Positions 50,090 through 56,175 of a stretch of DNA of 64,000 nt are shown in pieces. The notes below the pieces were generated by a model that saw nothing but the letters and a program-made list of their open reading frames with translations, had not been told where the DNA came from and made no database searches. Numbering within the stretch: position 1 is the first letter of the stretch; each line of letters starts with the position of its first letter. The position numbers and the translations under genes were made by a program. This stretch comes from Rhizophagus irregularis (Eukaryota > Glomeromycota > Glomeromycetes > Glomerales > Glomeraceae): positions 2,108,001-2,172,000 of the forward strand of contig NC_089430.1 of assembly GCF_026210795.1 (NCBI RefSeq), given 5' to 3'.

Positions 50090-53000
50090 ATGGGTCAATG
50101 TATTAGTAAAGGTAAACATATAGCATTAATATAAAATATAAATTAAAATTATTCAAATTTTTAAAACAACCTTGAAATATAGTAATAGCTTTCAGTAATG
50201 TTAAAGAAATTGAAGAAAATGGCACTGAAGAATTTGAGGAAAGTGGCACCAAGGAATCTAATATCTGTAAATAATTTAATTACTAGCTGGTCTTATATAA
50301 TATGAATAATAATGAATAATAATGGAATTGCTTATTATCTTTGTTATATTGCAAATAAATAAATAATTTATAAATGATTAATAATACTATAGTTTGTAAG
50401 TTAAATCTTTAGTTCTTTATTTATTCATTTTACATGATATAATATTTAAATAACTAATTTCTTTGTTTAATTAATGATTAATTATACTACAGCTGGTAAG
50501 TTACAGTATTTAAAAATTATTTGATATTTTATATAATTCAACTAATTATATTTTCTAATTAAATAACTAGATTGTAAGTAATATATTTAATTTATTAATT
50601 TATATTTATATCTAACTAATTAGTATAATTAATAATACTACAGGGTGTAAGTTACATAATATTTGTATTTCTATTACTTACATATTATTTAAGCTAAAAA
50701 ATTCCTCATTTAAAAAATTATTTCCTTTAGATCGTAAGTTATAATTTATTTATTATTACTTATTTTATATAGTATTTACATATAATTTGAACTAATCATA
50801 TTTAAAAATTATTTAATAATATAGGGTGTAAGTTAATTATTTAATTCTATTATCACATGTTTATATAATATTTACATATAATTTACACTAACTGAATTTT
50901 TATTTATAAAATTATTTTGTAATTTCTTTTAGATTGTAAGTTATAAGCTTATTTAATTTTATTATTACTTATTCACGTTTAATTTAAACTAATTAAATTC
51001 TTTATTTAAAATTATTTAATAATATAGTTCGTAAGTTATTTATCTAATTCTTTATTTATATAATATTTACATATACTAAATTTTGTAATTTCTTTTAGAT
51101 CGTAAGTTATACTTATTTAATTCCATTATAATTTATTCATATAATATTTACATATAATTTAAACTAATAAATTCTTTATTTAAAAATTATTTAATAATAT
51201 AGGGTGTAAGTATTTTTATAATTCTATTATCACTTATTTGTATAATGTTATATATAATTTATACTAACAATTAAAAAATTATTTTGTAATTCCTATTAGA
51301 TTGTGAGTTATAAGTTATTTATTTAATTCTATTTTTACTATTTTATATAATATTTACATATAAATTTAAAAAATTATTTTGTAATTTCCTTTAGATCGTA
51401 AGTTATGTTATTTATTTAATTTATTATTACTTATTTGCATATAATTTTAACTAAATTCTTTATTTAAAACATTATTTAATAATATATATAGGGAGTAAGT
51501 TATTTATTTAATTCTTTTAACACTTATTTATATAATATTTACATATAATTTAAACACCTAAATTTTTTATTTAAAAAATTATTTTGTAATTTCTTTTAGT
51601 TGGTAAGTTATAAGTGATTTATTTAATTCTATTATTACTTATTGTTATAATTTTACATGTAATTTAAACTAACTAAATTTTTTATTTAAATAGATTGTAA
51701 GTTATAAGTTATTTATTATTACTTACTGTTAAAATATTACATGTAATTTGAACTAACTAAATTCTTTATTTATAAAATTATTTTGTAATTTTTCTTTTAG
51801 ATGGTAAGTTATGAGTTATTTATTTAATTCTATTATAACTTATTTATATAATGTTTACATATAATTCAATCTAACTAAATTCTTTATTTAAAAAATTATC
51901 TTTAGATGGTAAGTTATAAACTATTTATTTAATTTTATTATTACCATATAATTAAAACAATTCTTTATTTAAAAATTAATTAATAATATAGGGAGTAAGT
52001 TATTTATTTATACTATTATTATTTATTTATATATTATTTACATAATATTTAAACTAATTTAATTCCTTATGTAAAAAATTATTTTGTAATTTCTTTTAGA
52101 TCGTAAGTTATAAATAATTTATTTTATTTATTTAATATTTTCATATAATTAAAACTAAGTTCTTTATTAAAAAATTATTTAATAATATAGGATGTAAGTT
52201 ATTTATTTAATTCTATTATTACTTATTTATATAATATTCACATATAATTTAAATTAACTATATTCTGTATTTAAAAAATTATTTAATAACATAGGGAGTA
52301 GGTTTTTTATTCAATTCTATTATTACTTATCTATACAATATTTATATATAATTTAAACTAACTAAATTCTTTATCTAATAATACAATAGGGGGTAAATTA
52401 AATATTTAATTCTAGTAGTATTACTTATTTAAATAATATTTATATATAATATAAACTAACTATATTCTTTACTTAAAAAATTATTTTGTAATTTCCTTTA
52501 GATCGTAAGTTATAAGTTATTTATTTAATTCTATTATATAATGTTTACATATAATTTACATCAATCAAATTCTTTATTTGCAAAACTATTTAATAATATA
52601 GGGTGTAAGTTATTTATTTAATTCTATCATTACTTATTTATAATATTTATATAACTAAATTCTTCATTTAAAAAATTATTTTGTAATTTCTATTAGATCG
52701 TAAGTTATAAATTATTTATTTAATTCTAATTTTACTATTTTATATAATATTTACATATAATTTAAACTAACTAAATTCTTTATTCAAAAAATTATTTTAT
52801 AATTTCCTTTAGATCGTAAGTTATGAGTTATTTATTTAGTTTTATTATTACTTATTTATATTTACATATAGTAATTCAAACTGACTAATAAATTATTTAA
52901 TAATATAGGGTGTAAGTTATTTAATTAATTCTATTATCACTTATTTATATAATATTCACATATAATTTAAACAACTAAATTCTTTATATAAAAATTATTT

Positions 53001-56000
53001 TGTGGTTTCTTTTAGTTGGTAAGTATAAGTTATTTATTTAATTCTATTTATCTATTATTACTTATTTGTATAATATTTACATATAATTTATATCATTTAA
53101 ACTAACTAAATTCTTTATTTATAAATTATTTTGTAATTTCTTTTAGATGGTAAATTATTAATTATTTATTTAGTTCTATTATTTATATATAATTTAAACA
53201 ATTAAATCTTTATTTAAAATATTTAAAAATTATTTAATAATATAGGGAGTAAGTTATTTACTTAATTTTTATTATTATTTATTTATTTAATATTTACATA
53301 TAATTAGAACTAATTAAGTTCTTTATTTAAAAAATTATTTTGTTAATTCCTTCTTAGATTGTAAGTTATAAGTTATTTATTTAATTCTATTTTTATTTAT
53401 TTATATAATATTTACATATAATTTAAACTAATTAAATTCTTTATTTAAAAATTATTTTGTAATTTTTTTTAGATGGCAAGTTATAAATAATTTATTTTAT
53501 TTATATAATATTTTCATATAATTAAAACTAAGTTCTTTACTAAAAAATTATTTAATAATATAGGATGTAAGTTATTATTTAATTCTAGTATTACTTATTT
53601 ATATAATATTCACATATAATTTAAACTAACTAAATTCTTTATTTAAAAAATTATTTTGTAATTTATTTTAGTTGGTGAGTTATAAGTTATTTATTCAATC
53701 TATTATTACTTATTGTTATATTTACACATAATTTAAACTAACTAAATTCTTTATTTAAAACACTATTTTGTAATTTCTTTTAGATTGTAAGTTATAAATT
53801 ATTTAATTCTATTATTACTCATTTATATAATATTTACATATTATTTAAACTAACTAAATTCAAATTCTTTATTTAAAAATTGGTTTGTAATATCTTTTAG
53901 ATCGTAAGCTTTAATTTATTTATTTAATTCTATTATTACTTAATTATATAATACTTACATATGATAAAACAATTCTTTATTTAAAAATTATTTAATAATA
54001 TAGGGAGTAAGTTATTTATTTAATTCTATTATTTGTATAATCTTTACATATAATTAAACTAATTAAATTCTTTATTTAAACAATTATTTAACAACATAGA
54101 GAGTAGGTTTCTTATTTAATTCTATTATTACTTATTTATATAATATTTAAATTAAACTATTTTTTTAAAGTTTAAACTAAACTAAATTATTTATTTAAAA
54201 ATTATTTTGCAATTTTTTTAGATCGTAAGTAATAAGTTATTTATTTAATTCTATTTTTATTATTTTATATAATATTTACATATAATTTAAACTAATTAAA
54301 TTCTTTAATTTCTTTTAGATCGTAAGTTATAAATTATTTATTTAGTTCTGCTATTTATTTATATATAATTTAAACTAATTATATTCTTTATTTAAAAAAT
54401 TATTTAATAATATAGAGTGTAAGTTATTTATTATTACCTATTCATGTAATATTTACATTTAGTTTAAATTAACTAAATTCTTTATTTAAATAATAATTTT
54501 GTAATTTCTTTTAGATGGTAAGTTACAAATGATCTATTTAATTCTATTATTACTTATTTATATAATATTACATATAATTTAAACTAATTAAATTCTTTAT
54601 TAAAAAAATTATTTTGTAATTTCTTTTAGATCGTAAGTTTATTCTGTTGTTACATATTTGTAATATTTACATATAATTTAAACTAACTAAATTCTTTATT
54701 TAAAAAATTATAAATATTATTTAATAATATAGCTTGTAAGTTATTTGTTGTTTCTAATTGTTATATATTATATATAATATTTATTTATTAACTGAATTCT
54801 TTCATTTAAAAATTTCTGTCACTTTAGTTGGTAAGTTATGAAATATAGTTTTTTTATTATTATATATATTTATACAAAAACTGATGACATATATTATATT
54901 AAATTCCAATTTAAATTAGAGTAAGTGTTAATTTTAATCTTTAATTTATTATAAACTTTAATATAATTTTAATTGATTAAATTTATAGATTTGGAAAAAG
55001 TGGAAATACAATTATAGATGAATTTATTTTTGAAAAAAAGTTAAAATGGATTCCTTATAATAAATTTAAAAATATTGAATATCTTGATAAAGGAGGATTT
55101 AGTACTATATACAAAGCTACTTGGTTAAATAATAATAATGATAAAGAAATAATTCTTAAATGTCATGATAATTTAAATGATAATTTAAATGAATTTTTAA
55201 ATGAAGTATGATATTATATTATTTATTTCTTTTAATTTAATTTACAATTTATTTATTAATTAATATGTTATTATTTTATAGTGGAAATATCATGAAAGCT
55301 GTTTAGATTCATATGATATTATTTATTTTTATGGATTTACAAAAAAACCGGATACTTTGAAATATATGGTAGTAATGGATTATGCAAACAAAGGTAATTT
55401 AAGAGGAAACCTAACAAGAATAATCAAAAATAATTGGAATCAAAAGTTATATATGTTGTATGAAATTATTTCTGGGCTTATTAATATACATAAACAAAAT
55501 CTTATTCATTGTGATCTTCATGATGGAAATATTTTAAATCATAATGAGAGTAAAATTTATATTAGTGATTTAGGATTATGCAAACCTATAAAATCATTTT
55601 TGAAAAAGTATAGTATTTATGGTGTTGTACCATTTATGGCACCTGAAATTTTAAGAGGCAAACCTTATACCCCAGCTAGTGATATATACAGTTTTTCTAT
55701 GATTATGTGGGAATTTACATCTGGGATACCACCATTTAATAATAGAGCACATGGTATTCAACTTAGTTTAGATATTTGTGAAGGTGAACGTCCTGAAATT
55801 ATTGAAAATACTCCACAATGTTATGTAGATTTGATGAAAAGATGTTGGGATGAAAATCCATTAAAAAGGCCATCTTCTGAAATAGTTTTAAATATTATTA
55901 AAGAATGGATATTTCTTCCTTATGACAGGAAAATTGAAGATATTAATGAAGAATTAAAATGCAATATTATGGAATTCATAAATGCACCAATAGGGCATAA

Positions 56001-56175
56001 CAATCTTACTACTGAATCTCATCCACAGGCTTGTTATACAGGTCGCTTACTTGATTTTACTAGTAAAAAATTGAATGAAATTCTTGAAAGTAAAAACTCA
56101 CAAGCTAGTATAAAATTGAATGAAATGTCATTAAGTGAAGATTTGAATGAGTATAAAATTGAAGATTTGAAGTAA
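50090..56175 (+). CDS. Myristoylation-signal TKL kinase with a 45-unit micro-exon linker
   Basis: Exon 1 (50090-50111) encodes MGQCISK, a typical N-myristoylation start with a palmitoylatable Cys4, so membrane anchoring is likely. Exon 2 (50183-50266) is acidic (KEIEENGTEEFEES). Then come 45 triplet exons, a possible single-base exon at 54920, and kinase exons 54989-55205 and 55282-56175 (stop at 56173). The predicted total is 450 residues. The kinase has a GGFSTIYKA loop, beta3 lysine in IILK, HCDLHDGN (the HRD arginine is replaced by Cys), SDLGLC for DFG, MAPE and CWDENPLKRP. Without the triplets a gene model would either stop at exon 2 (ICK*) or begin at the kinase. The non-RD loop suggests constitutive or weak activity. 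The kinase part is certain; joining it to MGQCISK through the array is inference from splice signals and frame. Confidence 0.65.
50393..54830 (+). repeat. Tandem array of 45 three-base micro-exons (~100 bp period)
   Basis: Triplets lie between AG and GT at 50393, 50493, 50571, 50644, 50731, 50825, 50933, 51028, 51099, 51203, 51300, 51395, 51492, 51600, 51694, 51801, 51906, 51992, 52100, 52191, 52295, 52390, 52502, 52602, 52697, 52813, 52909, 53016, 53147, 53246, 53358, 53473, 53564, 53672, 53784, 53901, 54004, 54100, 54222, 54319, 54416, 54515, 54630, 54733 and 54828. Spacing is 71-131, mean about 101. Donors are gtaagt-like except gcaagt after 53473. Two unit types alternate irregularly: one ends in ttcttttag before atc, att, atg or ttg; the other ends in aataatatag before ggt, gga or gat. 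Many units keep aaactaactaaattc, a branch-site candidate about 45 bases before the acceptor. Confidence 0.85.

Follow-up and report, generated by a model that had tools for sequence, protein, structure and literature searches.

How a coding sequence could be built from exons of three bases is the question raised by a putative kinase gene of Rhizophagus irregularis, an arbuscular mycorrhizal fungus living in symbiosis with plant roots. The gene lies in a 64,000-nucleotide (nt) stretch of contig NC_089430.1 (assembly GCF_026210795.1, positions 2,108,001 to 2,172,000 of the forward strand), hereafter the window, in whose coordinates positions are given below. Between a short N-terminal part and a kinase domain, an initial annotation had described a long run of units in which exactly three bases separate an acceptor from a donor splice site. 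We consider it highly probable that the window holds a kinase gene whose linker is encoded by 45 three-base exons and a single one-base exon, all joined in order by stepwise splicing. The proposal builds on four features of the sequence (the spacing of splice sites, the avoidance of stop codons, the book-keeping of phase and the recurrence of the arrangement in many genes), from which we infer the splicing itself.

All 45 acceptor-NNN-donor units, each with three bases between the two sites, were located between 50393 and 54830 (4.4 kb, plus strand). The first bases of exons 1–15 are at 50393, 50493, 50571, 50644, 50731, 50825, 50933, 51028, 51099, 51203, 51300, 51395, 51492, 51600 and 51694, those of exons 16–30 at 51801, 51906, 51992, 52100, 52191, 52295, 52390, 52502, 52602, 52697, 52813, 52909, 53016, 53147 and 53246, and those of exons 31–45 at 53358, 53473, 53564, 53672, 53784, 53901, 54004, 54100, 54222, 54319, 54416, 54515, 54630, 54733 and 54828. 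The acceptors are TAG (43) or CAG (2), and the donors GTAAGT (37), GTGAGT (2), GTAGGT (2), GTAAAT (2), GTAAGC (1) and GCAAGT (1); the 44 introns between the units measure 68–128 nt (median 97). On the plus strand of the window AG-NNN-GTAAGT occurs 37 times, every time inside the array and nowhere else, with one further match on the minus strand. This three-base spacing is far beyond chance. The units are tandem repeats, and by eye two kinds can be told apart in all arrays (those of other loci are introduced below), with ttttag-like and atatag-like acceptors and seemingly different triplet sets (AT/TT versus GG/AG/GA/CT). YTAAY, a candidate branch-site motif, was found within 75 nt upstream in 638 of the 698 units of 17 arrays, in sequence that is AT-rich.

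In our gene model (plus strand throughout) exon 1 (50090..50111) encodes MGQCISK and leaves one base; its product resembles what we take to be an N-myristoylation/palmitoylation start. Exon 2 (50183..50266) encodes the acidic peptide VIAFSNVKEIEENGTEEFEESGTKESNI and again leaves one base over. After the triplets come a one-base exon (54920..54920), a kinase exon (54989..55205) that opens with the last base of a codon (A) followed by FGKSGNTIIDEFIFEKKLKWIPYNKF, and a last kinase exon (55282..56175) terminating in a stop codon. The resulting single open reading frame of 450 amino acids matches Pfam PF07714 over residues 110–355 (E value 8.1e-40, 137.2 bits against a cut-off of 23.1).

Read in the phase left by exon 2, the array yields the peptide FSDWYRYFHRYYRIDYDGNRWRDRYHRFDGNYGFDYRKNHQYDPF. 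The initial annotation had contrasted this phase with another in which stops appear at once; indeed all 45 codons are sense in it and the third phase contains 6 stops, but the phase in which each triplet is a codon has 0 stops as well. Nor are these "single-codon" exons, as they had been called, since every linker codon takes its first base from the end of one exon and its other two from the start of the following exon.

The model drawn originally, in which the kinase part came directly after the 45 triplets, does not keep the frame. A single base remains after exon 2 and still remains after the triplets, whereas two bases must precede the kinase exon at 54989, which starts A|TTT|GGA|AAA. What had been overlooked is the one-base exon, an A at 54920 (aaattag|A|gtaagtg) located 89 nt past the last triplet, with which two bases instead of one are left over. 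The frame of the 450-residue model breaks when this exon is omitted, and likewise when exon 2 is spliced straight to 54989. A five-base final exon (AGTAA) was considered and rejected, since, added to the single base remaining after the triplets, it would shift the kinase from its frame.

The array had been thought to be without parallel, and this view does not hold. The R. irregularis genome (146,748,485 bases, 32 contigs) contains 4268 matches to the pattern TAG-N3-GTAAGTTA (2113 on the plus and 2155 on the minus strand), versus 90 and 85 for the reversed-pattern control. With a spacer of four or two bases the same pattern has only 86 and 89 matches, both below their own reversed controls (214 and 230). 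Patterns for the first and the last triplet have 74 and 99 genome matches (controls, 1 and 1). In 20 fetched regions besides the window, [TC]AG precedes 548 of 604 GTAAGT sites at a distance of exactly three bases and 26 sites lack it within 40 bases, the next commonest distance being one base (11 cases, at most one per region). From 117 clusters, which were built from few triplets among the matches listed and do not amount to a census, we chose 18 further arrays, mostly large ones and including L053 as the locus of a deposited protein (P0007). Together with that of the window they make 19 arrays with 763 curated units (17 of them comprise the 698 units mentioned above). Before counting, 12 overlapping detections and one false unit within an insertion in L038 were removed; an earlier 17-array tally (3 junction stops in 681 and 13 stops in the phase of whole triplets) kept these rows and is replaced by the 19-array tally, in which L051 and L053 are also included. 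Between 17 and 90 units were counted per fetched array, some arrays being incomplete.

The upstream exons recur as well. In 17 of 17 genes one base remains after exon 1, which was identified by eye and is 13, 16, 19, 22 or 25 nt long; this tally excludes L031, in which no exon 1 was identified, and L051, a 6-kb region that covers only part of its gene. A GTAAGT donor follows 659 of the 763 microexons versus none of the 17 first exons. The homologous acidic exon 2 of other genes likewise leaves one base (some genes also hold candidate exons in other phases), and no exon-2 candidate was found in L044, L048 or L050.

At least one of the arrays belongs to an unrelated gene family. L044 (3312–9713) is a channel-like gene unrelated to the kinases, in which 31 triplets lie between MDEI plus one base and a long channel-like protein. 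Here the next exon needs one base, and the gene is in frame without a one-base exon; we looked for such an exon and found none. Deposited relatives are named ion transport domain proteins; the deposited model P0008 has a precomputed PF23317 assignment and begins at a methionine downstream of the array. A Pfam search with the L044 model product returned no domain up to an E value of 1.

The evidence that the triplets are translated comes from their junctions. In the exon-2 phase a stop arises wherever a triplet with T as its last base precedes one that begins with AA, AG or GA, both classes being common. Over the 19 arrays such stops occur at 2 of 744 adjacent junctions, versus 30.1±4.2 in within-array shuffles, none of 10000 shuffles being as low; junctions are partly dependent owing to duplicated stretches. 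In the third phase there are 116 stops among 744 codons. The two exceptions (in L040 and L046) fall at long gaps of 193 and 172 nt, in each of which inspection by eye suggests an extra off-pattern unit (donor GTATGC in the first, GTAAAC in the second) that removes the stop when included; the second of these units, with an aag acceptor and six bases, is less certain. Only 2 distinct types of stop-forming pair are present (shuffle mean 20.7, minimum 12 in 2000 shuffles). The ratio of following triplets of the AA/AG/GA class to those starting with GG is 2:51 after T and 137:75 after other bases (Fisher p 2.9e-17), and a stop-class triplet follows ATT in 0 of 65 cases versus 16 of 81 for ATC (p 6e-5). 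No avoidance is seen between more distant triplets, with 26 stop-forming pairs among 725 at lag 2 (29.4 expected) and 34 among 706 at lag 3 (28.7 expected). The pattern indicates selection on codons that are assembled across introns of about 95 nt, and between direct neighbors only. We know of no explanation for such neighbor-only avoidance other than splicing in order followed by translation, and most likely the triplets are joined in this way, each codon being split over a junction.

The second line of evidence is the one-base exon, which follows 15 of the 19 arrays, 14 of these 15 having a recognizable kinase exon. In every array with a readable kinase exon (14 of 14) the one-base exon is both present and needed, exactly two bases being required. 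The junction codon in these 14 arrays is GAA (12), AAA (1) or GCA (1). They include the decayed L043, with a one-base-exon donor GTAATT and an interrupted kinase exon; in another decayed member, L033, the kinase exon is lost. Our search pattern did not find a one-base exon after the arrays of L046, L049 and L050, which run into unrelated sequence; in L046, aag|A|gtaagt occurs 599 nt further downstream. A similar repeat (tgttgtgcctcagattgattc or close to it) stands directly after the arrays of both L046 and L050. Genome-wide, a 21-base pattern around the one-base exon, TATTTAAATTTTAGNGTAAGT, has 82 matches and its reversed control none, and 54 of the 82 lie 328–506 bp upstream of a listed kinase match on the same strand (0.1 expected with random placement). 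The one-base or the last-triplet pattern is found within 2500 bp upstream of 75 of the 91 listed kinase matches, that is, those scored out of 6266 candidates. Overall, the avoidance of stops at adjacent junctions, combined with this book-keeping of phase on the 3′ side of the 14 kinase arrays and of L044, supports the original proposal that the triplets are in-frame exons of a kinase gene encoding a linker in the phase of exon 2.

The course of events that we propose is as follows. Ordinary spliceosomal introns of about 95 nt, mostly with GTAAGT donors, would separate the three-base exons and be removed one by one, each splice bringing the growing exon to the next donor. The process would resemble recursive splicing, but with three bases retained per step. 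Strong donors and short introns suit intron definition. The stepwise order is suggested because two spliceosomes cannot flank a three-base exon simultaneously; the same no-room argument was made for a one-base exon by Guo and Liu (PMC4674806). Every triplet would be included, in order, the base left by exon 2 splitting each linker codon across two exons, and the one-base exon would supply the base for entering the kinase frame. The predicted product is a kinase in which a hydrophilic linker, its length set by the number of triplets, would join a short acidic and possibly membrane-anchored N-terminus to the kinase domain.

Several observations weigh against this proposal and lend themselves to other explanations. 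Taken alone, the window array does not contain enough triplets for the stop test (1.35 stops expected, 0 observed). The first five triplets are alike in paralogues, but at 0.33 differences per site versus 0.31 for introns 1–4 (12 arrays); because introns at array starts are about equally conserved, the likeness is no sign of selection, and we dropped it as evidence. Our searches of deposited proteins found no model in the exon-2 phase. P0007, an R. irregularis protein 99% identical over residues 166–461 to a locus on contig 11 and representing the same gene as L053, contains most (about thirty) of the triplets of L053 in their genomic order, reading each one as a complete codon (by-eye comparison), with an apparent retained intron piece ahead of them and a five-base exon replacing the one-base exon. 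One could accordingly imagine that each triplet is spliced in as a whole codon, between an extra exon before the array and a five-base end exon AGTAA. Triplets that are themselves stop codons are indeed rare (2 of 763), yet the remaining triplets that begin with TA or TG are scarcely more frequent (7 of 698); the third triplet base varies most, which alone would fit the P0007 phase. On the other hand, a single base remains after exon 2, also among the exons of P0007 itself, so that the phase of its triplets conflicts with its own exon 2 and an intron piece must be retained to shift it; the avoidance of stops at adjacent junctions would have no cause, and 39 of the 45 linker residues in the window would be I, G, L or M. 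We rejected whole codons on the phase of exon 2 and the junction stops, and regard this arrangement as very improbable; P0007 may be a gene-finder product without RNA support.

Other deposited models (P0002, P0003 and P0008) have their starts at the array or beyond it, on the kinase or channel exon or immediately ahead of that exon; P0001 and P0004, judging from their letters, appear to take the one-base-exon donor with an extended exon. Such models would suit an array that is a non-coding satellite within one long intron, or a gene transcribed from just upstream of the kinase exon, the splice motifs being leftovers or decoys. The tandem repetition of the units agrees with this, and so does an internal AG at 55017 of the kinase exon, to which exon 2 could be spliced in frame with a loss of FGKSGNTIID. 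However, splicing of exon 2 to 54989 would be out of frame, and neither the avoidance of stops between neighbors only, with introns of about 95 nt in between, nor the phase-correcting one-base exon in 14 of 14 arrays would be explained; we give this possibility hardly any credence. A different matter is whether real three-base exons are skipped in many combinations, giving many linkers per gene, as initially proposed. The frame would survive any skipping, all exons having three bases, and many triplets (ATN, GGN, TTN) are unable to form a stop with any neighbor in the exon-2 phase. In fact, about 3.6% of single skips would create a stop, with no visible selection; because stops at distance two are not avoided (the lag-2 and lag-3 counts given above), products of skipping show no sign of having been selected. 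Free combinatorial skipping thus appears unlikely, and constitutive inclusion of all triplets is the simplest reading.

The triplets and the introns around them seem to have evolved apart. Where the flanking introns are 2.7% different, the triplets differ by 46, 39 and 55% at their first, second and third positions (541 pairs, non-independent). Both flanking triplets differ between introns 1–2 edits apart in 42% of the 79 within-array pairs and in 9 of the 10 between-array pairs (for example, a CTT..CTT intron in L045 and an AGA..AGA intron in L051 with 1 edit in 101 bp), and such pairs between unrelated triplets occur also between arrays on different contigs, as among introner-like elements. 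Continuous point hypermutation of the triplets was considered for these cases and is not supported by a stretch of L040 that is duplicated internally (units 32–51 versus 47–66, an offset of 15 units), in which 19 introns are 1.0% diverged and 4 of 60 triplet sites differ, all within the first three triplets among the sites listed. Introns have thus often been spread or homogenized without their codons.

These observations make it conceivable, and compatible with stepwise splicing of every triplet, that mobile, introner-like introns were inserted beside existing ones, each with a three-base target-site duplication; we entertain this origin only tentatively. Identical triplets flank 9 of the 34 introns whose unrelated copy is closest, and then 14/69, 14/97, 12/122 and 14/91 down to 27/287 of those with none; overall, identical neighbors number 96 of 744 versus a shuffle mean of 71.0 (standard deviation 7.3). 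On the other hand, 25 of the 34 youngest introns are flanked by different triplets, which does not bear out target-site duplication as the only origin. Of the 38 within-array pairs of identical introns (there are none between arrays), 82% retain both triplets, as in plain segmental duplication, and gene conversion among introns together with selection on codons would also fit. Introner-like insertion and such conversion each seem to account for the data in part. Gain and loss of units is probably the way in which the length and sequence of the linker evolve in the kinase family.

The arrays share parts with several known systems. As in micro-exon genes (MEGs), there are tandem, very short exons of a length divisible by three, 45 of them with 3 nt; long introns of the MEG type (0.1–5 kb) are absent, those of the window measuring 68–128 nt. 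The MEGs of Schistosoma (PMC10526429) similarly have many consecutive, very short and mostly in-frame exons that are hard for automatic annotation. Their exons are mostly 15 bp long (range 6–81 in the text of that paper, 3–81 in its abstract), with 10–20 per gene and introns up to 5 kb. The arrays of the fungal kinases and of the channel-like gene instead have 17–90 exons of exactly 3 nt, which the lag test suggests to be constitutive, and introns of roughly 95 nt. Secretion by way of a signal peptide and diversity from alternative splicing are further MEG traits; the modelled product here begins with MGQCISK and is a kinase, and the lack of selection against stops in products of skipping speaks against such diversity. 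The closest parallels to the one-base exon are those of plant APC11 and VPS55 (PMC4674806, PMC8831610) and of Fusarium CYP621A (PMC12940212), where a frame-required single base also stands between an AG and a donor. They are lone exons, confined to one gene family each and confirmed on RNA, whereas the one predicted here from sequence recurs in dozens of paralogues and follows a three-base-exon array.

Splice sites are likewise arrayed in tandem in polyubiquitin UBC, itself a repeat gene (PMC10809524), in which the AGGT sites bound whole ubiquitin monomers and splicing is stochastic; here the unit is a 3-nt exon. In recursive splicing, ratchet points (AG|GT) leave nothing behind and subdivide long introns; the arrays share with them an acceptor placed so directly before a donor that removal would be stepwise, but three bases would remain in the mRNA per step, and no zero-base exon is present, all 45 units of the window having three bases. 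Known introners are scattered, while here the introns stand every three coding bases. Introners and introner-like elements (PMC9860276) are alike in being near-identical introns at many positions and in many genes; the main text of that paper does not mention Rhizophagus or Glomeromycotina. Our literature search turned up no paper on arrays of three-base exons among the titles listed, which were the smaller share of the longer result lists, in a library with few subscription papers and preprints.

To our knowledge, this would be the most finely divided coding sequence. More broadly, we put forward as a possibility, and with considerable reservation, that the genome contains thousands of three-base exons in dozens of genes, with obligate stepwise splicing, a one-base phase switch and mobile-intron insertion adding three coding bases each time. 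Should this be true, the arrays would test how small and how dense exons can be for the spliceosome, would provide dozens of natural replicates of a one-base exon, and would offer a system in which intron gain and protein lengthening may be one event that diversifies linkers. N-terminal gene models would also be wrong across a large kinase family of a key plant symbiont, because the deposited models examined either leave out the array or use a reading phase at odds with exon 2.

Two further tandem repeats were observed in the window. Between 60568 and 64000, reaching the end of the window, there are about 6.7 copies of a 498-bp repeat encoding N-terminal pieces of a kinase (FQQNFENWTSGNDNIDKSIQ...EWIPYDRLYNIKYI). 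Between 13471 and 14779, 7.5 copies of a 174-bp repeat (93% matches) contain an open frame of 129 residues in one phase.

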